Shown here: piece by piece, positions 8,757 through 64,000 of the stretch
Layout: the number at the start of each line of letters is the position of its first letter
Numbering within the stretch: the stretch's first letter is position 1
Origin: Bolinopsis microptera
Taxonomy: Eukaryota > Ctenophora > Tentaculata > Lobata > Bolinopsidae
DNA: 64,000 nt
Assembly (NCBI RefSeq): GCF_026151205.1
Contig: NC_087079.1
Location: forward strand, 2,327,730-2,391,729
Reading direction: 5' to 3'
Position numbers and translations under genes: made by a program
The notes under the pieces: model-generated
Database searches by the model: none
The model's input: only the letters and a program-made list of their open reading frames with translations
What the model was told of the DNA's origin: nothing

Positions 8757-9567
8757 TGCCCCCTTTATCTGCCCCCTTTATCTGCCCCCTTTATCTGCCC
8801 CCTTTATCTGCCCCCTTTATCTGCCCCCTTTATCTGCCCCCTTTATCTGCCCCCTTTATCTGCCCCCTTTATCTGCCCCCTTTATCTGCCCCCTTTATCT
8901 GCCCCCTTTATCTGCCCCCTTTATCTGCCCCCTTTATCTGCCCCCTTTATCTGCCCCCTTTATCTGCCCCCTTTATCTGCCCCCTTTATCTGCCCCCTTT
9001 ATCTGCCCCCTTTATCTGCCCCCTTTATCTGCCCCCTTTATCTGCCCCCTTTATCTGCCCCCTTTATCTGCCCCCTTTATCTGCCCCCTTTATCTGCCCC
9101 CTTTATCTGCCCCTTTATCTGCCCCCTTTATCTGCCCCCTTTATCTGCCCCCTTTATCTGCCCCCTTTATCTGCCCCTTTATCTGCTCCCTTTATCTGCC
9201 CCCTTTATCTGCCCCCTTTATCTGCCCCCTTTATCTGCCCCTTTATCTGCCCCCTTTATCTGCCCCCTTTATCTGCCCCCTTTATCTGCCCCCTTTATCT
9301 GCCCCCTTTATCTGCCCCCTTTATCTGCCCCCTTTATCTGCCCCCTTTATCTGCCCCCTTTATCTGCCCCCTTTATCTGCCCCCTTTATCTGCCCCCTTT
9401 ATCTGCCCCCTTTATCTGCCCCCTTTATCTGCCCCCTTTATCTGCCCCCTTTATCTGCCCCCTTTATCTGCCCCCTTTATCTGCCCCCTTTATCTGCCCC
9501 CTTTATCTGCCCCCTTTATCTGCTCCCTTTATCTGCCCCCTTTATCTGCCCCCTTTATCTGCTCCAT
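8757..9567. repeat. 13-bp minisatellite (TGCCCCCTTTATC), G-run rich on minus strand
   Basis: About 62 copies of TGCCCCCTTTATC. A few units are 12 bp (four C instead of five), and three carry a T in the C run (near 9186, 9522 and 9562). The plus strand is almost all pyrimidine, so the minus strand offers a G5 run every 13 bases. The 273-codon open frame here is an artefact of the repeat. Confidence 0.97.
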
Positions 9568-18429: not shown

Positions 18430-21400
18430 AAAGTAACTGAGTCTATGGTAGTGGTCGCTAAGCACCGTACTGAGTCTATGGTAGTGGTCGCTAAGCACCG
18501 TACTGAGTCTATGGTAGTGGTTGCTAAACACAGTACTGAGTCTATGGTAGTGGTCGCTAAGCACCGTACTGAGTCTATGGTAGTGGTCGCTAAGCACCGT
18601 GCTGAGTCTATGGTAGTGGTCGCTAAACACCGTACTGAGTCTATGGTAGTGGTCGCTAAGCACCGTACTGAGTCTATGGTAGTGGTTGCTAAGTACCGTA
18701 CTGAGTCTATGGTAGTGGTCGCTAAGCACCGTGCTGAGTCTATGGTAGTGGTTGCTAAGTACCGTACTGAGTCTATGGTAGTGGTCGCTAAGCACCGTAC
18801 TGAGTCTATGGTAGTGGTCGCTAAGCACCGTACTGAGTCTATGGTAGTGGTCGCTAAACACAGTACTGAGTCTATGGTAGTGGTCGCTAAGCACCGTACT
18901 GAGTCTATGGTAGTGGTTGCTAAGCACCGTACTGATTCTATGGTAGTGGTCGCTAAGCACCGTACTGAGTCTATGGTAGTGGTCGCTAAGCACCGTACTG
19001 AGTCTATGGTAGTGGTCGCTAAACACAGTACTGAGTCTATGGTAGTGGTCGCTAAGCACCGTACTGAGTCTATGGTAGTGGTCGCTAAGCACCGTGCTGA
19101 GTCTATGGTAGTGGTCGCTAAACACCGTACTGAGTCTATGGTAGTGGTTGCTAAGTACCGTACTGAGTCTATGGTAGTGGTCGCTAAGCACCGTGCTGAG
19201 TCTATGGTAGTGGTCGCTAAGCACCGTACTGAGTCTATGGTAGTGGTCGCTAAGCACCGTACTGAGTCTATGGTAGTGGTCGCTAAGCACCGTACTCAGT
19301 CTATGGTAGTGGTCGCTAAGCAGTAAGCACCGTGTTGAGTCTATGGTAGTGGTCGCTAAGCACAGTACTGAGTCTATGGTAGTGGTCGCTAAGCACCGTA
19401 CTGAGTCTATGGTAGTGGTCGCTGAGTACCGTACTGAGTCTATGGTAGTGGTCGCTAAGCACCGTACTGAGTCTATGGTAGTGGTTGCTAAGTACCGTAC
19501 TGAGTCTATGGTAGTGGTCGCTAAGCACCGTACTGAGTCTATGGTAGTGGTCGCTAAGCACCGTACTGAGTCTATGGTAGTGGTCGCTAAACACAGTACT
19601 GAGTCTATGGTAGTGGTCGCTAAGCACCGTACTGAGTCTATGGTAGTGGTCGCTAAGCACCGTGCTGAGTCTATGGTAGTGGTCGCTAAACACCGTACTG
19701 AGTCTATGGTAGTGGTCGCTAAGCACCGTACTGAGTCTATGGTAGTGGTTGCTAAGTACCGTACTGAGTCTATGGTAGTGGTCGCTAAGCACCGTGCTGA
19801 GTCTATGGTAGTGGTTGCTAAGCACCGTACTGATTCTATGGTAGTGGTCGCTAAGCACCGTACTGAGTCTATGGTAGTGGTCGCTAAGCACCGTACTGAG
19901 TCTATGGTAGTGGTCGCTAAACACAGTACTGAGTCTATGGTAGTGGTCGCTAAGCACCGTACTGAGTCTATGGTAGTGGTCGCTAAGCACCGTGCTGAGT
20001 CTATGGTAGTGGTCGCTAAACACCGTACTGAGTCTATGGTAGTGGTTGCTAAGTACCGTACTGAGTCTATGGTAGTGGTCGCTAAGCACCGTGCTGAGTC
20101 TATGGTAGTGGTCGCTAAGCACCGTACTGAGTCTATGGTAGTGGTCGCTAAGCACCGTACTGAGTCTATGGTAGTGGTCGCTAAGCACCGTACTCAGTCT
20201 ATGGTAGTGGTCGCTAAGCAGTAAGCACCGTGTTGAGTCTATGGTAGTGGTCGCTAAGCACAGTACTGAGTCTATGGTAGTGGTCGCTAAGCACCGTACT
20301 GAGTCTATGGTAGTGGTCGCTAAGTACCGTACTGAGTCTATGGTAGTGGTCGCTAAGCACCGTACTGAGTCTATGGTAGTGGTTGCTAAGTACCGTACTG
20401 AGTCTATGGTAGTGGTCGCTAAGCACCGTGCTGAGTCTATGGTAGTGGTCGCTAAGCACCGTACTGAGTCTATGGTAGTGGTCGCTAAGCACCGTACTGA
20501 GTCTATGGTAGTGGTCGCTAAGCACCGTACTCAGTCTATGGTAGTGGTCGCTAAGTACCGTACTGAGTCTATGGTAGTGGTCGCTAAGCACAGTACTGAG
20601 TCTATGGTAGTGGTCGCTAAGCACCGTACTGAGTCTATGGTAGTGGTCGCTAAGTACCGTACTGAGTCTATGGTAGTGGTCGCTAAGCACCGTACTGAGT
20701 CTATGGTAGTGGTTGCTAAGTACCGTACTGAGTCTATGGTAGTGGTCGCTAAGCACCGTGCTGAGTCTATGGTAGTGGTCGCTAAGCACCGTACTGAGTC
20801 TATGGTAGTGGTCGCTAAGCACCGTACTGAGTCTATGGTAGTGGTCGCTAAGCACCGTACTCAGTCTATGGTAGTGGTCGCTAAGCACCGTACTCAGTCT
20901 ATGGTAGTGGTCGCTAAGCAGTAAGCACCGTGTTGAGTCTATGGTAGTGGTCGCTAAGCACAGTACTGAGTCTATGGTAGTGGTCGCTAAGCACCGTACT
21001 GAGTCTATGGTAGTGGTCGCTAAGTACCGTACTGAGTCTATGGTAGTGGTCGCTAAGCACCGTACTGAGTCTATGGTAGTGGTTGCTAAGTACCGTACTG
21101 AGTCTATGGTAGTGGTCGCTAAGCACCGTGCTGAGTCTATGGTAGTGGTCGCTAAGCACCGTACTGAGTCTATGGTAGTGGTCGCTAAGCACCGTACTGA
21201 GTCTATGGTAGTGGTCGCTAAGCACCGTACTCAGTCTATGGTAGTGGTCGCTAAGTACCGTACTGAGTCTATGGTAGTGGTCGCTAAGCACAGTACTGAG
21301 TCTATGGTAGTGGTCGCTAAGCACCGTACTGAGTCTATGGTAGTGGTCGCTAAGTACCGTACTGAGTCTATGGTAGTGGTCGCTAAGCACCGTACTGAGT

Positions 21401-21447
21401 CTATGGTAGTGGTTGCTAAGTACCGTACTGAGTCTATGGTAGTGGTC
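18430..21447. repeat. 33-bp minisatellite with higher-order structure, left part
   Basis: About 91 units whose core is GAGTCTATGGTAGTGGTCGC followed by TAAGCACCGTACT. Variants (CAC/TAC, CCG/CAG, ACT/GCT) recur in a fixed order, so blocks of many units are duplicated. An anomalous junction GCTAAGCAGTAAGCACCGTG occurs at about 19315, 20213 and 20913, adding 7 bp and shifting the reading frame each time. The unit is 11 codons, which leaves both strands open over long distances (up to ~300 codons). These frames carry no signal of selection I can see and are not called genes. Confidence 0.96.
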
Positions 21448-23778
21448 TAGGGACTACGGGTGGAAGATGAATAATTGATATTCCAACAGCATCTTGTTCC
21501 CTGCATTGTGCTGATTCCGGGAAGCATTCTGTTTATGCTCTCATCATTCTGTAGGATGAGATATCGTTCATTTAAAATTGGGTAATTATAGGCCTGTCAA
21601 GGATTGCAGCCTAATTACGAGCTGATCAATTGCAGCTAGTTGTGCCATATAAGGGATAACTGAGGTCACGTGACATTCAGTCCTATCACGTGACCGCTAA
21701 TCCTATCACGTGACCTTGATTCGTAAAGCCTCGGGCACGTGATCACATTCGTAACGTGTAGTATGCCGACTAGGAGATTTTATGACGTCACCAGAGCTGA
21801 AGCTACTTGATCAGGCCTTATATGGAATAATATCGTGTATCGGGTGTAATTGGACCTAATTAGAGCAGCTGAGCGCTCAATTATAGCAGCATCTGGTACC
21901 ACCTTCTGAAACCCAGCAGACAGCTGGCCCAGAGAATCGAAATTAGAAGGATTTTTTATTGATGGAAATCGAAGCGGAAACCTTGTAACCCTATGTTTTC
22001 GATGACGCCGAACAAGAATAAACAGGTTATAATTGTCCTACTCTCGTGTAAATTGCTCTAAAACGTGATTGAAATTTTAATGATGCTATCAATTGTAATA
22101 CTAATACAGTTTTTACATTAAGCTGAGCGGCGTAACGGCTGGCATTCCTGGGCCGCACTCATCCCAGATTGTCATTCCGCCGCAGCTTCAATTTTTATGA
22201 ATATTACAGCCTGGGGTCCCCAGGTAACGACTGGAACCGCTATATCTGCCTAATCTCAGTTATTGTAAATAACGAAGCCTGTGATCCGCACATCAGGTAT
22301 TGACCACATTGAACGGGCTTGAATCGAACAAGCCGTGTTATTAATATTAAGATATTAATACCAAAAATCGTATTACTATTACCTTCTTGTCATTTGTGCG
22401 AAGTGCGTACTCTTTATACTGCAGTTTGAAGTGCATTACAGAGTTAATGTTATGTGTATTATACAGTTACAGTTATGTAACTGTTGCACACAGTAAAACT
22501 TACTGCGATCGCGCTGATAAGAAGTGAACTGATAAGAGTCGAGTAAAATTGCAACGTAACTAAAATCAATGTAACACCGCTATATGAATAGTGATCATTT
22601 CTCAAATAGTTTTCTCAATATTGCAATGAAGTTGTCAGATTTTATTGATGGAACGTGTGATGTTAGTGATTCCATCGCTATACTTCGTCCACACACTGTA
22701 CTTAGCAATCATGATTATAAGTATTAAACAATGCAATATATATATATAGATTTTAATTCCAAGTGTTCGTAGAATAATTGAAAACGTAGCACTGTAAATG
22801 CGCCAGCTATTCAACTTATGATAACTTAATCAAATTGATGACATTCAAGTGCATTTTGAAAAAATTTACCCGATACTATGATTTTTCTCATAGTAATAAC
22901 ACGACGTTCAATTCAAACCCGTTCAATGCCTGATGTGCGGATCACAGGCTTCGTTATTTACAATAACTGAGATTAGGCAGATATAGCGGTTCCAGTCGTT
23001 ACCTGGGGACCCCAGGCTGTAATATTCATAAAAATTGAAGCTGCGGCGGAATGACAATCTGGGATAAGTGCGGCCCAGGAATGCCAGCCGTTACGCCGCT
23101 CAGCTTAATGTAAAAACTGTATTAGTATTACAATTGATAGCATCATTAAAATTTCAATCACGTTTTAGAGCAATTTACACGAGAGTAGGACAATTATAAC
23201 CTGTTTATTCTTGTTCGGCGTCATCGAAAACATAGGGTTACAAGGTTTCCGCTTCGATTTCCATCAATAAAAAATCCTTCTAATTTCGATTCTCTGGGCC
23301 AGCTGTCTGCTGGGTTTCAGAAGGTGGTACCAGATGCTGCTATAATTGAGCGCTCAGCTGCTCTAATTAGGTCCAATTACACCCGATACACGATATTATT
23401 CCATATAAGGCCTGATCAAGTAGCTTCAGCTCTGGTGACGTCATAAAATCTCCTAGTCGGCATACTACACGTTACGAATGTGATCACGTGCCCGAGGCTT
23501 TACGAATCAAGGTCACGTGATAGGATTAGCGGTCACGTGATAGGACTGAATGTCACGTGACCTCAGTTATCCCTTATATGGCACAACTAGCTGCAATTGA
23601 TCAGCTCGTAATTAGGCTGCAATCCTTGACAGGCCTATAATTACCCAATTTTAAATGAACGATATCTCATCCTACAGAATGATGAGAGCGTAAACAGAAT
23701 GCTTCCCGGAATCAGCACAATGCAGGGAACAAGATGCTGTTGGAATATCAATTATTCATCTTCCACCCGTAGTCCCTA
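21448..23778. mobile_element. 2.33-kb foldback transposon inserted in the 33-bp minisatellite
   Basis: The element runs from TAGGGACTACGGGTGG to its complement CCACCCGTAGTCCCTA. Arms of about 0.9 kb (21448 to ~22345 and ~22894 to 23778) are near-identical in inverse orientation, separated by about 550 bp of AT-rich unique sequence. It is flanked by TAGTGGTC on both sides (21440-21447 and 23779-23786). Removing the element and one copy of that octamer restores a perfect 33-bp unit. An 8-bp duplication is typical of hAT elements, and a TAGGG start fits hAT ends, but other superfamilies with 8-bp duplications exist. Each arm carries four CACGTG palindromes. No transposase or other ORF is inside, so it is non-autonomous. 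Confidence 0.92.
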
Positions 23779-24102
23779 TAGTGGTCGCTAAGCACCGTGC
23801 TGAGTCTATGGTAGTGGTCGCTAAGCACCGTACTGAGTCTATGGTAGTGGTCGCTAAGCACCGTACTGAGTCTATGGTAGTGGTCGCTAAGCACCGTACT
23901 CAGTCTATGGTAGTGGTCGCTAAGTACCGTACTGAGTCTATGGTAGTGGTCGCTAAGCACCGTACTGAGTCTGTGGTAGTGGTCGCTAAGCACCGTGTTG
24001 AGTCTATGGTAGTGGTCGCTAAGCACAGTACTGAGTCTATGGTAGTGGTCGCTAAGCACCGTACTGAGTCTATGGTAGTGGTCGCTAAGCACCGTACTGA
24101 CT
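23779..24102. repeat. 33-bp minisatellite, right part
   Basis: About 10 further units of the 33-bp repeat, resuming in register after the foldback element. The order of variant units (GCTGAG, ACTGAG, ACTGAG, ACTCAG, then a TAC unit) is the order seen in the blocks at about 20420-20560 and 21120-21260. The array ends near ACCGTACTGACTG. Confidence 0.95.
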
Positions 24103-29852: not shown

Positions 29853-31087
29853 ATGTTAAGACTATTGTTACTATGTTATTATGGTTACTATGGTTACTAT
29901 TGTTACTATGGTTACTATTGTTACTATGGTTACTATTGTTACTATGGTTACTATTGTTACTATGGTTACTATTGTTACTATGGTTACTATTGTTACTATG
30001 GTTACTATTGTTACTATGGTTACTATTGTTACTATTGTTACTATGTTATTATGGTTACTATTGTTACTATGGTTACTATTGTTACTATGTTATTATGTTA
30101 TTATGGTGACTATTGTTATTATGGTTACTATTGTTACTATGGTTACTATTGTTACTATGGTTACTATTGTTACTATGGTTACTATTGTTACTATGGTTAC
30201 TATTGTTACTATGGTTACTATTGTTACTATGGTTACTATTGTTACTATTGTTACTATGTTATTATGGTTACTATTGTTACTATTGTTACTATTGTTACTA
30301 TGTTATTATGGTTACTATTGTTACTATGGTTACTATGGTTACTATGGTTACTATTGTTACTATTGTTACTATGGTTACTATTGTTACTATGGTTACTATT
30401 GTTACTATGGTTACTATTGTTACTATGGTTACTATTGTTACTATGGTTACTATTGTTACTATGGTTACTATTGTTACTATGGTTACTATTGTTACTATGG
30501 TTACTATTGTTACTATTGTTACTATGTTATTATGGTTACTATTGTTACTATTGTTACTATTGTTACTATGTTATTATGGTTACTATTGTTACTATTGTTA
30601 CTATTGTTACTATGTTATTATGGTTACTATTGTTACTATTGTTACTATTGTTACTATGTTATTATGGTTACTATTGTTACTATTGTTACTATTGTTACTA
30701 TGTTATTATGGTTACTATTGTTACTATGGTTACTATTGTTACTATGGTTACTATTGTTACTATGGTTACTATTGTTACTATGGTTACTATTGTTACTATG
30801 GTTACTATTGTTACTATGGTTACTATTGTTACTATGGTTACTATTGTTACTATGGTTACTATTGTTACTATTGTTACTATGTTATTATGGTTACTATTGT
30901 TACTATTGTTACTATTGTTACTATGTTATTATGGTTACTATTGTTACTATTGTTACTATTGTTACTATGTTATTATGGTTACTATTGTTACTATGGTTAC
31001 TATTGTTACTATGGTTACTATTGTTACTATGTTATTATGGTTACTATGGTTACTATGGTTACTATTGTTACTATGTTATTATGGTGA
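29853..31087. repeat. 9-bp minisatellite (GTTACTATG / GTTACTATT)
   Basis: About 135 units, mostly alternating GTTACTATG and GTTACTATT, with blocks of three or four consecutive ATT units and recurring GTTACTATGTTATTATG spacers. The block order itself repeats. All three plus-strand frames stay open for hundreds of codons (up to 574), giving peptides of V/T/M/I, L/W or Y/C/G only; these are not genes. Confidence 0.96.
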
Positions 31088-38854: not shown

Positions 38855-39338
38855 AGTTATCATGGTAACAGCTGCCACAGTTATCATGGTAACAGCTGCC
38901 ACAGTTATCATGGTAACAGCTGCCACAGTTATCATGGTAACAGCTGCCACAGTTATCATGGTAACAGCTGCCACAGTTATCATGGTAACAGCTGCCACAG
39001 TTATCATGGTAACAGCTGCCACAGTTATCATGGTAACAGCTGCCACAGTTATCATGGTAACAGCTGCCACAGTTATCATGGTAACAGCTGCCACAGTTAT
39101 CATGGTAACAGCTGCCACAGTTATCATGGTAACAGCTGCCACAGTTATCATGGTAACAGCTGCCACAGTTATCATGGTAACAGCTGCCACAGTTATCATG
39201 GTAACAGCTGCCACAGTTATCATGGTAACAGCTGCCACAGTTATCATGGTAACAGCTGCCACAGTTATCATGGTAACAGCTGCCACAGTTATCATGGTAA
39301 CAGCTGCCACAGTTATCATGGTAACAGCTGCCACAGTT
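38855..39338. repeat. 24-bp minisatellite, 20 copies, apparently without variation
   Basis: Twenty units reading AGTTATCATGGTAACAGCTG then CCAC, with no difference that I could see. Each unit holds the near-palindrome GTTATCATGGTAAC and the E-box CAGCTG. The unit is eight codons, so several frames are open on both strands (160-200 codons). I do not regard them as genes. Confidence 0.97.
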
Positions 39339-40349
39339 GAACGAATATAAAATAGTATTCGGAACTTTAGGGCATCCAGCACAAGCGTCCCCATAATGTC
39401 TCAGTCTGTTCAAATAAAATCAGATGAGATATGTCATAGTTGTGTATCATACTCATAGTCATAACTTTCCATACTGATACCGTTTTATTTTTATACTGTA
39501 ATTACCAAGAGGAATTGTTTTGAATTTCAATCAGAATTGGCAACCGTTTTAAATGCTATCTCAAATGCTCGTTATAGTTGTAACAAAGCGCTTTATCAGG
39601 AAATTGTTTGCCGGTCTACAAGAATCTTACCTTTGTTAGTCTCACGTCGCGATACCTTTATTTCCAAGTACTTTTGAATTAATAGCCCACTACGAAACTT
39701 AAACTTTATTTTACCTTCTTTTTTATCAAATATTTGACCAAAACCCATAATCATGGGTAGAGTGGACCGCTGCCAGTGTCTCTCTTTCCCAAACAAAAGG
39801 AAATGGTATTAATTTGAATAACCGTCCGCAAATGCAAAATGGTAACGAGAATGAAATCGGTCGCTCGCTTTTCCCATTCATTCACGGCTTACGAATTGTA
39901 ATAAGTTTCGGTTAATTATATCCATGACATGCTGTAAAAATCTCTTTGGGTTGCTTTCGGCAATTACAATTGCAAATGACTGATATGTTTTAGATTATCG
40001 CCACAGTTTACTTAAGTAGATGTATGGCATTGTATCTTATCATGTAACAAGCATAATTGTGCCGGACCCCTTTATGCCGACTAAACAAGAACGAACATGA
40101 AACAGTTTGCCCAGACACACCTGTTCGTATTGCTCTTAGTTCCGTAAAATGTTGTGTTGGAAAAGCTAATTGCTGTCAAGTTGCAAGAAGTTACTACTAA
40201 TTTAATAATTGTTCATGGTTTATTACAACATAATCATACACTTTAGTGGTTCATTTCATTAAAATTTTGCAGTAGCAAATTATACCATTTTGGGAGCGGT
40301 GTGGAAAAGGCGAGTGTGGACAGGGAGGAGGTTAATTGTTGGAAGACAA
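39339..40349. other. Non-coding spacer
   Basis: No gene is supported. A short minus-strand open frame at 39596-39796 has no recognisable motif. Confidence 0.4.
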
Positions 40350-41336
40350 CACTTGACCAAGGGAACCACACCTTGTACACCACTTGACCAAGGGAACCAC
40401 ACCTTGTACACCACGTGACCAAGGGAACCACACCTTGTACACCACTTGACCAAGGGAACCACACCTTGTACACCACGTGACCAAGGGAACCACACCTTGT
40501 ACACCACGTGACCAAGGGAACCACACCTTGTACACCACGTGACCAAGGGAACCATACCTTGTACACCACGTGACCAAGGGAACCACACCTTGTACACCAC
40601 GTGACCAAGGGAACCACACCTTGTACACCACATGACCAAGGGAACCACACCTTGTACACCACGTGACCAAGGGAACCACACCTTGTACACCACGTGACCA
40701 AGGGAACCACACCTTGTACACCACGTGACCAAGGGAACCATACCTTGTACACCACGTGACCAAGGGAACCATACCTTGTACACCACGTGACCAAGGGAAC
40801 CACACCTTGTACACCACGTGACCAAGGGAACCACACCTTGTACACCACGTGACCAAGGGAACCACACCTTGTACACCACGTGACCAAGGGAACCACACCT
40901 TGTACACCACGTGACCAAGGGAACCACACCTTGTACACCACGTGACCAAGGGAACCATACCTTGTACACCACGTGACCAAGGGAACCACACCTTGTACAC
41001 CACGTGACCAAGGGAACCACACCTTGTACACCACGTGACCAAGGGAACCACACCTTGTACACCACGTGACCAAGGGAACCACACCTTGTACACAACGTGA
41101 CCAAGGGAACCACACCTTGTACACCACGTGACCAAGGGAACCACACCTTGTACACCACGTGACCAAGGGAACCACACCTTGTACACCACGTGACCAAGGG
41201 AACCACACCTTGTACACCACGTGACCAAGGGAACCACACCTTGTACACCACGTGACCAAGGGAACCACACCTTGTACACCACGTGACCAAGGGAACCACA
41301 CCTTGTACACCACGTGACCAAGGGAACCACACCTTG
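40350..41336. repeat. 31-bp minisatellite with CACGTG in nearly every unit
   Basis: About 32 units containing CCACGTGACCAAGGGAACCA. Variants are few: ACTTGACC in three units at the left end, one CATGACC, one AACGTGACC, and some ATACC for ACACC. All three minus-strand frames are open (up to 395 codons) as a by-product. The array lies about 340 bp beyond the 3' end of the GPCR reading frame. Confidence 0.96.
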
Positions 41337-55740: not shown

Positions 55741-58700
55741 TAGAACATCAGAGGACCAGCTCATCAGAGGACCAGAACATCAGAGGACCAGAACATCAGA
55801 GGACCAGAACATCAGAGGACCAGAACATCAGAGGACTAGAACATCAGGGAACCAGAATATCAGAGGACCAGAACATCAGAGGACCAGAACATCAGGGGAC
55901 CAGAACATCAGGGGACCAGATCATCAGAGGACCAGAACATCAGAGGACCAGCACATCAGAGGACCAGAACATCAGGGGACCAGATCATCAGAGGACCAGA
56001 ACATCAGAGGACCAGAACATCAGAGGACCAGAACATCAGAGGACCAGAACATCAGACGACTAGAACATCAGAGGACCAGAACATCAGAGGACCAGATCAT
56101 CAGAGGACCAGAACATCAGAGGACCAGAACATCAGAGGACCAGCACATCAGAGGACCAGCACATCAGAGGACCAGAACATCAGAGGACCAGAACATCAGG
56201 GGACCAGAACATCAGAGGACCAGATCATCAGAGGACCAGATCATCAGAGGACCAGCACATCAGAGGACCAGAACATCAGAGGACCAGAACATCAGAGGAC
56301 TAGAACATCAGGGGACCAGAATATCAGAGGACCAGATAATCAGAGGACCAGATCATCAGAGGACCAGCACATCAGAGGACCAGAACATCAGAGGACCAGA
56401 ACATCAGAGGACTAGAACATCAGGGGACCAGAATATCAGAGGACCAGATAATCAGAGGACCAGATCATCAGAGGACCAGAACATCAGAGGACCAGAACAT
56501 CAGAGGACTAGAACATCAGAGGACCAGAATATCAGAGGACCAGAACATCAGAGGACCAGATCATCAGAGGACCAGCACATCAGAGGACCAGATCATCAGA
56601 GGACCAGCACATCAGAGGACCAGAACATCAGAGGACCAGAACATCAGAGGACTAGAACATCAGGGGACCAGAATATCAGAGGACCAGATAATCAGAGGAC
56701 CAGATCATCAGAGGACCAGCACATCAGAGGACCAGAACATCAGAGGACCAGAACATCAGAGGACTAGAACATCAGGGGACCAGAATATCAGAGGACCAGA
56801 TAATCAGAGGACCAGATCATCAGAGGACCAGAACATCAGAGGACCAGAACATCAGAGGACTAGAACATCAGAGGACCAGAATATCAGAGGACCAGAACAT
56901 CAGAGGACCAGATCATCAGAGGACCAGCACATCAGAGGACCAGAACATCAGAGGACCAGAACATCAGAGGACTAGAACATCAGGGGACCAGAACATCAGG
57001 GGACCAGAACATCAGAGGACCAGCACATCAGAGGACCAGCACATCAGAGGACCAGAACATCAGAGGACCAGAACATCAGAGGACTAGAACATCAGGGGAC
57101 CAGAATATCAGAGGACCAGATAATCAGAGGACCAGCACATCAGGGGACTAGATCATCAGAGGACCAGAACATCAGGGGACCAGATCATCAGAGGACCAGA
57201 ACATCAGAGGACCAGAACATCAGAGGACCAGAACATCAGAGGACCAGAACATCAGAGGACCAGAACATCAGAGGACCAGCACATCAGAGGACCAGAACAT
57301 CAGAGGACCAGAACATCAGAGGACCAGAACATCAGAGGACTAGAACATCAGGGGACCAGAACATCAGGGGACCAGAACATCAGAGGACCAGAACATCAGA
57401 GGACCAGCACATCAGAGGACCAGAACATCAGAGGACCAGAACATCAGAGGACTAGAACATCAGGGGACTAGAACATCAGGGGACCAGAATATCAGAGGAC
57501 CAGATAATCAGAGGACCAGCACATCAGGGGACTAGATCATCAGAGGACCAGAACATCAGGGGACCAGAACATCAGGGGACCAGAATATCAGAAGACCAGA
57601 ACATCAGAAGACCAGAATATCAGAGGACCAGAACATCAGAGGACCAGAACATCAGAGGACCAGAACATCAGAGGACTAGAACATCAGGGGACCAGAACAT
57701 CAGGGGACCAGAACATCAGAGGACCAGCACATCAGAGGACCAGCACATCAGAGGACCAGAACATCAGAGGACCAGAACATCAGAGGACTAGAACATCAGG
57801 GGACCAGAATATCAGAGGACCAGATAATCAGAGGACCAGCACATCAGGGGACTAGATCATCAGAGGACCAGAACATCAGGGGACCAGATCATCAGAGGAC
57901 CAGAACATCAGAGGACCAGAACATCAGAGGACCAGCACATCAGAGGACCAGAACATCAGAGGACTAGCACATCAGAGGACCAGCACATCAGAGGACCAGA
58001 TCATCAGAGGACCAGATCATCAGACGACTAGAACATCAGAGGACTAGAACATTAGTGGACCAGATCATCAGAGGACTAGAACATTAGTGGACCAGAACAT
58101 CAGAGGACCAGAACATCAGAGGACCAGAACATCAGAGGACCAGAACATCAGAGGACCAGAACATCAGAGGACCAGAACATCAGAGGACTAGAACATTAGT
58201 GGACCAGATCATCAGAGGACTAGAACATTAGTGGACCAGAACATCAGAGGACCAGAACATCAGAGGACCAGAACATCAGAGGACCAGAACATCAGAGGAC
58301 CAGAACATCAGAGTACCAGAACATCAGAGGACCAGATCATCAGAGGACCAGAACATCAGAGGACCAGATCATCAGAGGACCAGATCATCAGAGGACCAGA
58401 ACATCAGACGACTAGAACATCAGAGGACTAGAACATTAGTGGACCAGATCATCAGAGGACTAGAACATTAGTGGACCAGAACATCAGAGGACCAGAACAT
58501 CAGAGGACCAGAACATCAGAGGACCAGAACATCAGAGGACCAGAACATCAGAGTACCAGAACATCAGAGGACCAGATCATCAGAGGACCAGAACATCAGA
58601 GGACCAGATCATCAGAGGACCAGAACATCAGAGGACCAGAACATCAGACGACTAGAACATCAGAGGACTAGAACATTAGTGGACCAGATCATCAGAGGAC

Positions 58701-59643
58701 TAGAACATTAGTGGACCAGAACATCAGAGGACCAGAACATCAGAGGACCAGAACATCAGAGGACCAGAACATCAGAGGACCAGAACATCAGAGTACCAGA
58801 ACATCAGAGGACCAGATCATCAGAGGACCAGATCATCAGAGGACCAGATCATCAGAGGACCAGAACATCAGAGGACCAGAACATCTGACGACTAGAACAT
58901 CAGAGGACTAGAACATTAGTGGACCAGATCATCAGAGGACTAGAACATTAGTGGACCAGAACATCAGAGGACCAGAACATCAGAGGACCAGAACATCAGA
59001 GGACCAGAACATCAGAGGACCAGAACATCAGAGTACCAGAACATTAGTGGACCAGATCATCAGAGGACTAGAACATTAGTGGACCAGAACATCAGAGGAC
59101 TAGAACATTAGTGGACCAGAACATCAGAGGACCAGAACATCAGAGGACCAGAACATCAGAGGACCAGAACATCAGAGGACCAGAACATCAGAGTACCAGA
59201 ACATCAGAGGACCAGATCATCAGAGGACCAGAACATCAGAGGACCAGATCATCAGAGGACCAGAACATCAGAGGACCAGAACATCAGACGACTAGAACAT
59301 CAGAGGACTAGAACATTAGTGGACCAGATCATCAGAGGACTAGAACATTAGTGGACCAGAACATCAGAGGACCAGAACATCAGAGGACCAGAACATCAGA
59401 GGACCAGAACATCAGAGGACCAGAACATCAGAGTACCAGAACATCAGAGGACCAGATCATCAGAGGACCAGATCATCAGACGACCAGAACATCAGACGAC
59501 CAGAACATCAGAGGACCAGAACATCAGAGGACCAGAACATCAGAGGACCAGCACATCAGAGGACCAGCACATCAGAGGACCAGAACATCAGAGGACCAGC
59601 ACATCAGAGGACCAGAACATCAGAGGACCAGAACATCAGGGGA
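55741..59643. repeat. 16-bp minisatellite with 240-bp higher-order units
   Basis: About 244 units of AGAACATCAGAGGACC with recurrent variants (GATCATC, GCACATC, GATAATC, GGGGACC, GGACTAG, AGTACC, ATTAGTGGACC). From about 58080 to 59440 the variant order repeats every 240 bp (15 units), shown by identical 66-codon frames starting at 58231, 58471 and 58711 and again at 59111 and 59351. One period of 160 bp between 58951 and 59110 breaks the register. It is the longest array in the window. Confidence 0.97.
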
Positions 59644-61071: not shown

Positions 61072-63950
61072 ACCAAGTTCTGATGAGCATGAGTTGCCAA
61101 ATATTACTACCAAACTGCGCACCTCAAGTTCTGATGAGCGTGAGTTGCCAAATATTACTACTAAACTGCGCACCTCAAGTTCTGATGAGCGTGAGTTGCC
61201 AAATATTACTACTAAACTGCGCACCTCAAGTTCTGATGAGCGTGAGTTACCAAATATCACTACTAAACTGCGCACCTCAAGTTCTGATGAGCATGAGTTG
61301 CCAAATATTACTACTAAACTGCGCACCTCAAGTTCTGATGAGCGTGAGTTGCCAAATATCACTACTAAACTGCGCACCTCAAGTTCTGATGAGCGTGAGT
61401 TGCCAAATATCACTACTAAACTGCGCACCTCAAGTTCTGATGAGCGTGAGTTGCCAAATATCACTACTAAACTGCGCACCTCAAGTTCTGATGAGCGTGA
61501 GTTGCCAAATATTACTACTAAACTGCGCACCTCAAGTTCTGATGAGCATGAGTTGCCAAATATCACTACTAAACTGCGCACCTCAAGTTCTGATGAGCGT
61601 GAGTTGCCAAATATCACTACTAAACTGCGCACCTCAAGTTCTGATGAGCGTGAGTTGCCAAATATCACTACTAAACTGCGCACCTCAAGTTCTGATGAGC
61701 GTGAGTTGCCAAATATTACTACTAAACTGCGCACCTCAAATTCTGATGAGCATGAGTTGCCAAATATTACTACTAAACTGCGCACCTCAAGTTCTGATGA
61801 GTGTGAGTTGCCAAATATTACTACTAAACTGCGCACCTCAAGTTCTGATGAGCGTGAGTTGCCAAATATTACTACTAAACTGCGCACCTCAAGTTCTGAT
61901 GAGCGTGAGTTGCCAAATATTACTACTAAACTGCGCACCTCAAGTTCTGATGAGCGTGAGTTGCCAAATATTACTACTAAACTGCGCACCTCAAGTTCTG
62001 ATGAGCGTGAGTTGCCAAATATTACTACTAAACTGCGCACCTCAAGTTCTGATGAGCGTGAGTTGCCAAATATCACTACTAAACTGCGCACCTCAAGTTC
62101 TGATGAGCGTGAGTTGCCAAATATCACTACTAAACTGCGCACCTCAAGTTCTGATGAGCGTGAGTTGCCAAATATCACTACTAAACTGCGCACCTCAAGT
62201 TCTGATGAGCGTGAGTTGCCAAATATCACTACTAAACTGCGCACCTCAAGTTCTGATGAGCGTGAGTTGCCAAATATCACTACTAAACTGCGCACCTCAA
62301 GTTCTGATGAGCGTGAGTTGCCAAATATTACTACTAAACTGCGCACCTCAAGTTCTGATGAGCATGAGTTGCCAAATATCACTACTAAACTGCGCACCTC
62401 AAGTTCTGATGAGCGTGAGTTGCCAAATATCACTACTAAACTGCGCACCTCAAGTTCTGATGAGCGTGAGTTGCCAAATATCACTACTAAACTGCGCACC
62501 TCAAGTTCTGATGAGTTTGAGTTGCCAAATATTACTACTAAACTGCGCACCTCAAGTTCTGATGAGCGTGAGTTGCCAAATATCACTACTAAACTGCGCA
62601 CCTCAAGTTCTGATGAGCGTGAGTTGCCAAATATCACTACTAAACTGCGCACCTCAAGTTCTGATGAGCGTGAGTTGCCAAATATTACTACTAAACTGCG
62701 CACCTCAAGTTCTGATGAGCGTGAGTTGCCAAATATCACTACTAAACTGCGCACCTCAAGTTCTGATGAGCGTGAGTTGCCAAATATCACTACTAAACTG
62801 CGCACCTCAAGTTCTGATGAGCGTGAGTTGCCAAATATTACTACTAAACTGCGCACCTCAAGTTCTGATGAGCGTGAGTTGCCAAATATTACTACTAAAC
62901 TGCGCACCTCAAGTTCTGATGAGCGTGAGTTGCCAAATATCACTACTAAACTGCGCACCTCAAGTTCTGATGAGCGTGAGTTGCCAAATATTACTACTAA
63001 ACTGCGCACCTCAAGTTCTGATGAGCATGAGTTGCCAAATATTACTACTAAACTGCGCACCTCAAGTTCTGATGAGTGTGAGTTGCCAAATATCACTACT
63101 AAACTGCGCACCTCAAGTTCTGATGAGTGTGAGTTGCCAAATATTACTACTAAACTGCGCACCTCAAGTTCTGATGAGTGTGAGTTGCCAAATATTACTA
63201 CTAAACTGCGCACCTCAAGTTCTGATGAGTGTGAGTTGCCAAATATTACTACTAAACTGCGCACCTCAAGTTCTGATGAGTGTGAGTTGCCAAATATCAC
63301 TACTAAACTGCGCACCTCAAGTTCTGATGAGTGTGAGTTGCCAAATATTACTACTAAACTGCGCACCTCAAGTTCTGATGAGTGTGAGTTGCCAAATATT
63401 ACTACTAAACTGCGCACCTCAAGTTCTGATGAGTGTGAGTTGCCAAATATTACTACTAAACTGCGCACCTCAAGTTCTGATGAGCATGAGTTGCCAAATA
63501 TTACTACTAAACTGCGCACCTCAAGTTCTGATGAGTGTGAGTTGCCAAATATCACTACTAAACTGCGCACCTCAAGTTCTGATGAGCGTGAGTTGCCAAA
63601 TATCACTACTAAACTGCGCACCTCAAGTTCTGATGAGCGTGAGTGGTGAGTTGCCAAATATTACTACTAAACTGCGCACCTCAACTTCAAGTTCTGATGA
63701 GCATGAGTTGCCAAATATTACTACTAAACTGCGCACCTCAAGTTCTGATGAGTGTGAGTTGCCAAATATTACTACTAAACTGCGCACCTCAAGTTCTGAT
63801 GAGTGTGAGTTGCCAAATATTACTACTAAACTGCGCACCTCAAGTTCTGATGAGCGTGAGTTGCCAAATATCACTACTAAACTGCGCACCTCAAGTTCTG
63901 ATGAGCGTGAGTTGCCAAATATTACTACTAAACTGTGCACCTCAAGTCCT
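61072..63950. repeat. 51-bp minisatellite, ~56 copies
   Basis: Units contain GAGTTGCCAAATATTACTAC, TAAACTGCGCACCTCAAG and TTCTGATGAGCG. Few variant sites recur: TATTAC or TATCAC, and GCGTGAG, GCATGAG or GTGTGAG. CGTGAG units dominate on the left, TGTGAG units on the right (about 63070-63560). Two length changes near 63642 and 63685 break the reading frame. The unit is 17 codons, so two plus-strand frames (996 and 851 codons) and a minus-strand frame (866 codons) are all open. With three overlapping frames open at once, none can be taken as coding on this evidence. Confidence 0.96.
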
Positions 63951-64000
63951 GGGCTGGCACATGCAATAACCGCACTCAGCCATACCCATTAGGGAGCACT

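Follow-up and report, generated by a model that had tools for sequence, protein, structure and literature searches.

A probable internal-deletion copy of a long-TIR DNA transposon in a patterned minisatellite of Bolinopsis microptera

The element and the array around it

The window, the whole 64-kb stretch of DNA analysed here, contains a 33-bp minisatellite that is interrupted by an element of 2,331 bp (21448-23778). The octamer TAGTGGTC stands on each side of the element (21440..21447 and 23779..23786, both + strand, read from the sequence) and forms its target-site duplication. The left terminal inverted repeat (TIR) starts with TAGGGACTACGGG and occupies 856 nt (21448..22303, + strand); the right one, also 856 nt, lies on the - strand at 22923..23778. 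Both arms were delimited by an inverted-repeat search and by self-comparison, the latter of which finds three mismatches in the 856 nt, at arm positions 89, 713, and 851, and a breakdown of the palindrome from position 857; the 100% complementarity returned by the inverted-repeat search is a rounded value. The left arm contains three TCACGTGAC motifs at 20-bp spacing (21666..21714, + strand; TRF and sequence), with the mirror stretch in the right arm at 23509-23560. These are possible transposase-binding sites. Between the arms is a spacer of 619 nt (22304..22922, + strand). Within it, comparison with the exon in longer copies of the element reveals the start of the first recognised exon of a transposase-like gene (22584..22660, + strand), which is truncated at a deletion junction (22660..22661) with 1 bp common to both sides. 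An Rfam scan of the whole window gave nothing at gathering thresholds.

When the flanks are joined with one octamer, they form a perfect 33-bp unit, type B. The first-pass annotation had described an element of this length with inverted arms and an octamer on both sides, whose removal with one octamer restores such a unit; its coordinates, its ends, and the restored unit were all reproduced. The annotation had also called the insertion "in register". The unit is indeed restored, but this is nothing beyond an ordinary target-site duplication. A different delimitation, with a TA duplication and ends GGGACTA, was tried and rejected; such joining leaves the octamer twice with TA between, that is, ten extra bases. 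The site is thus a correctly observed, ordinary transposition, cleanly preserved.

The array to the left of the element (18436..21447, + strand) is organised in higher-order blocks of about 10 and about 21 units, and its right part (23787..24100, + strand), of about 10 units, carries on the order of unit variants (TRF and unit reading). With the element and one octamer removed, the joined array has 100 unit anchors, and in unit letters the junction reads ...DEFAEAC[B]AADEAMFAN. Four places in the joined array show the order FAEACBAAD, one of them spanning the insertion, and B is the next unit after 8 of the 10 C units, the junction counted. Three uninterrupted counterparts lie upstream. The one at 700 bp is identical to the interrupted block over 585 bp to the left and 138 bp to the right of the insertion point, and those at 330 and 1030 bp are each identical to it over 184 bp on the left and 174 bp on the right. 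These matches bear out the earlier statement that the order of unit variants continues across the insertion as it does in the duplicated blocks. None of the three counterpart blocks holds the element. The commonest unit has 41 matches in the genome, every one of them inside the window array, in a search that covers exact matches only. The array also contains three 40-bp units with a 7-bp insertion (19302-19341, 20200-20239, and 20900-20939), the last two of which are offset by exactly 700 bp, a distance equal to the larger block's spacing.

A dispersed family and its deletion derivatives

The element belongs to a family that is dispersed in the genome and has TIRs of about 0.85-0.89 kb. Arm sequence gave at least 42 matches in the genome, in a search that scored 40 of 651 first-look candidates, and there are 102 exact copies of the 22-bp terminus. 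The copies have fixed ends and terminal inverted repeats at many loci, as expected of a cut-and-paste (TIR) transposon. Perfect target-site duplications are present in 25 of the 27 copies in which both flanks were examined (8 bp in 19 and 9 bp in 6), and such a near-fixed length is likewise a mark of cut-and-paste transposition. The search for other copies with shared ends, proposed in the first-pass annotation, therefore had a positive outcome. In copy C4_10.9 the duplication is imperfect, with 7 of 8 bases matching. In C2_12.8 (L040/L041, C2:12850436-12851415 and C2:12859643-12860622) the flanks are unrelated and show no target duplication, a condition that ectopic recombination between two copies would be expected to leave.

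Assembly easily goes wrong at palindromes whose arms are nearly identical, and the inverted arms might on that ground be taken for an artefact. Yet 16 other copies keep both arms over at least the outer 640 bp, the examined copies have proper target duplications in the proportion just given, and the two arms of the window element differ at defined positions, all of which makes an artefact scarcely credible.

The longest copy fetched whole, L023, has 8,887 bp and served as the reference for comparing junctions. The window element corresponds to L023 positions 8887-7678 joined to 1115-1, with an internal deletion of about 6.56 kb, and its spacer therefore consists of both subterminal regions of a longer element. 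Among 17 other loci, 8 also have a single internal junction relative to L023 (L013, L014, L016, L019, L021, L022, L025, and L027), 4 have several (L015, L017, L024, and L028), and in 5 the interior is unmatched or rearranged (L018, L020, L026, L029, and L030). In two further copies, L056 (C6:9760877-9761196) and L057 (C12:11122024-11122370), the exact termini are no more than 200 and 227 bp apart; these miniature derivatives of the family have 8- and 9-bp target duplications. The L026 copy (C13:14126000-14128400) adjoins open frames that we take to resemble reverse transcriptase, and is apparently inserted in a retroelement.

We conclude, with a probability of about 0.9, that the window element is a non-autonomous internal-deletion derivative of a cut-and-paste DNA transposon with long TIRs, and that it entered a patterned array in a single insertion. 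Such a deleted copy would presumably have been moved in trans by the putative activity of the transposase-like protein of longer copies. The array itself does not appear to be a preferred kind of target. TRF found no minisatellite in 29 short flanks (about 70-190 bases) of family copies from 18 loci, and returned two weak matches with scores of 34 and 30; thus, the landing of this copy in an array looks like chance.

The longer copies hold exons of a multi-exon gene, represented in L023 by the stretches SDGTNTLTG, CLLHSVELPLR, HARW, NSYFAHP, and PCHQQAVER. Homologous gene fragments elsewhere in the genome, L031 and L033, are 31-33% identical overall; all five stretches have counterparts in L031 and the last three in L033. 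The label "transposase-like" is given because the gene is placed between the arms, has exons, and has dispersed relatives. Searches with the exons and a concatenated exon model yielded no significant Pfam match, a catalytic-domain profile included, all hits being below curated cut-offs. PDB searches by sequence with the same queries and a 3-sequence alignment gave chance-level matches only, and four pieces of the protein had no significant match among the prokaryote families of NCBIfam. In a scan of viral contigs, 5 stretches fitted a pattern for this protein and none was confirmed. Similar unnamed proteins are presumably present in animals, and a protein unmatched in Pfam by sequence may merit classification. 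In L032 (C3:1620200-1625000), a single open stretch of 717 aa joins a reverse-transcriptase-like frame to a fragment distantly related to this protein.

Members of the hAT superfamily make 8-bp duplications and have YARNG ends; mixed 8- and 9-bp duplications are atypical of them. The present family resembles hAT elements in its 8-bp duplications and in its termini, TAGGG, which fit YARNG. It differs from them in that 6 of the 25 perfect duplications are 9 bp, the TIRs are unusually long, and neither the exons nor the concatenated model matches a hAT transposase domain in Pfam (a run made without a hAT positive control). Nor did Pfam detect a THAP domain or P-type transposase, in a run again made without a positive control and with the N-terminal part of the gene uncertain.

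The first-pass annotation had named the element a foldback transposon. The long inverted arms, the 8-9-bp duplications, and the short motif that recurs every 20 bp within each arm would all suit a true foldback-type element of the Drosophila FB kind, whose long arms are internally repetitive. However, long tandem repeats do not make up the arms, in which TRF finds just the 20-bp motif with about 2.5 repeats per arm, and the spacer brings together, at one breakpoint, the two subterminal regions of a longer coding element, with other breakpoints in other copies. A foldback-type element is therefore very unlikely, and an internal-deletion derivative of a coding element takes its place. Among known systems, Galileo of Drosophila mojavensis, a member of the P superfamily, is described in PMC3573991 as having deletion derivatives, long TIRs that are 98-100% identical within a copy, subfamilies in the TIR phylogeny, and chimeric copies with non-matching flanks. 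The window family shares with Galileo, as portrayed there, the very long TIRs, the many deletion derivatives, the near-identical TIRs within a copy, the subfamilies recognisable when TIRs are placed in a phylogeny, and the chimeric, non-matching flanks; it is unlike Galileo, which has 7-bp duplications and a P-type transposase, in its duplications of 8-9 bp and its protein without a Pfam match. Tetris, a foldback element of Drosophila virilis, has long TIRs and duplications of 8-9 bp, or 9-10 bp in rearranged copies, according to PMC4079207. The long TIRs, variable middle, and 8-9-bp duplications are common to both families. In contrast, Tetris is described there as having tandem repeats of about 220 bp within its TIRs and no known coding copy, whereas here the tandem array is the target. 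The window family thus resembles Galileo and Tetris, a likeness that does not imply membership in either.

Comparison of the arms

For a table of sites in the outer 650 bp, 40 of 54 arms were kept, including both arms of 17 copies; 14 arms were excluded because they were truncated or showed little similarity to the reference arm, columns consisting mostly of gaps were skipped, and pairs with a gap in one arm were set aside. At 42 of the 44 informative sites, every two-armed copy with the minority letter has it in the left arm as well as the right. The exceptions are position 56 (L018) and position 352 (L017), in one copy each. Many of the 44 sites mark the same two copies, C10_11.4 and C2_20.0, and are not independent. 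When right arms were permuted among the 17 two-armed copies, the summed within-copy arm differences had a mean of 188, compared with 30 observed, and none of 20,000 shuffles was as low. Neither of those two copies was part of the shuffles within subgroups, which gave 20 observed versus 25.5 shuffled for the main group of 11 copies (17 of 20,000 as low), and 4 versus 15 for the 4-copy group of the window element (802 of 20,000 as low, close to the minimum attainable with 24 arrangements).

Three substitutions, at 313, 335, and 571, are common to the two arms of the window element and occur in none of the other 38 arms, one of which is gapped at 335. An exact 30-base string with 313 and 335, and an exact 31-base string with a 6-bp duplication, occur genome-wide only in these two arms; such searches miss copies with one of 313/335 or another change nearby. 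The site of the 6-bp duplication is slippage-prone, since one arm, L029_l, has a different insertion there (28 of 32 arms displayed). The simplest account of the shared changes, judged from their pattern, is a transfer of sequence between arms, which may have taken place either before or after insertion, through conversion or through templated repair.

The inner edge shows the reverse pattern. In the main group, nearest-neighbour arms of the same end type are separated by 0-5 substitutions, while the left and right ends of one copy differ at 12-20 positions in 9 of 13 two-armed copies; the remaining values are 6 for the window element, 10 for L013, 7 for L030 (over a shorter comparison), and 108 for L018, which has an altered left arm. 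Thirteen positions are fixed differently by end type, 3 at 786-814 and 10 at 844-859, among 9 and 10 arms with one exception allowed per group. These fixed differences are older than the individual insertions.

Changes private to a copy are mostly on a single arm. In the outer 650 bp of 11 two-armed copies, they affect one arm at 46 columns and both arms at 5 (30 of 32 arms used; the 46 columns include long deletion and insertion runs), and thus in-place conversion is not continuous. Substitutions between the outer arms number 0-5 per copy, with 1 in the window element, so that the copies are either young or recently made uniform. Because the outer arms share changes and the inner edge keeps older, end-specific differences, counting arm mismatches, as the first-pass annotation had advised, does not simply date the insertion. 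More generally, naive dating is unsafe for long inverted repeats of DNA transposons in which the outer part is concerted and the inner edge older. It is conceivable, though we consider it rather doubtful, that the outer 650 bp or so is homogenised around the time of each transposition, perhaps through repair synthesis with one arm as template for the other, and that single-arm mutations then accumulate. If so, the arms would provide a per-insertion clock, like the LTRs of retrotransposons, and the single outer substitution of the window element would bound the age of the higher-order pattern in the minisatellite.

Order of insertion and array pattern

The events at the locus would amount to a single insertion of the deleted element into unit B of an array that was already patterned, with 8 bp duplicated. 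As read from the unit order, the higher-order pattern is very probably older than the insertion, and the insertion very probably came after the most recent duplications of the surrounding blocks, since the corresponding units there are empty. On the simplest reading, no element-bearing block has been duplicated since, and the array contains no second copy of the insertion, in agreement with the earlier claim that turnover has not copied it. The claim that the array had its pattern before the element arrived is favoured by the one event required and by the empty counterparts, but exchange with empty alleles could mimic this order, and no such allele was observed. Tandem arrays recombine between alleles, and the relative date is thus likely, not airtight, since this array may recombine with an element-free allele.

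The opposite order would have the insertion predate the neighbouring block duplications; the empty blocks would then have arisen afterwards, when the array underwent unequal exchange with, or conversion by, an element-free allele. Recombination between alleles of arrays is well established, and the duplication at offset 700 is recent because the block is identical over the whole 585 + 138 bp, both of which would suit an older insertion. This order, however, demands exchange with an empty allele and also an exactly continuous variant order to the left and right of the element, whereas a late insertion is one event only. We regard the older insertion as unlikely. With a late insertion, one clean event provides a temporal marker for a minisatellite in which the order of unit variants can be read, and later turnover of the array could be traced in other individuals via the insertion.

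The window is rich in further minisatellites identified by TRF. They have units of 13 bp (x62, 8757-9562), 18 bp (x69, 29861-31085), 24 bp (x20, 100% matches, 38855-39338), 31 bp (x32, 40346-41336), 16 bp (x244, 55742-59643), and 51 bp (x56, 61074-63951).
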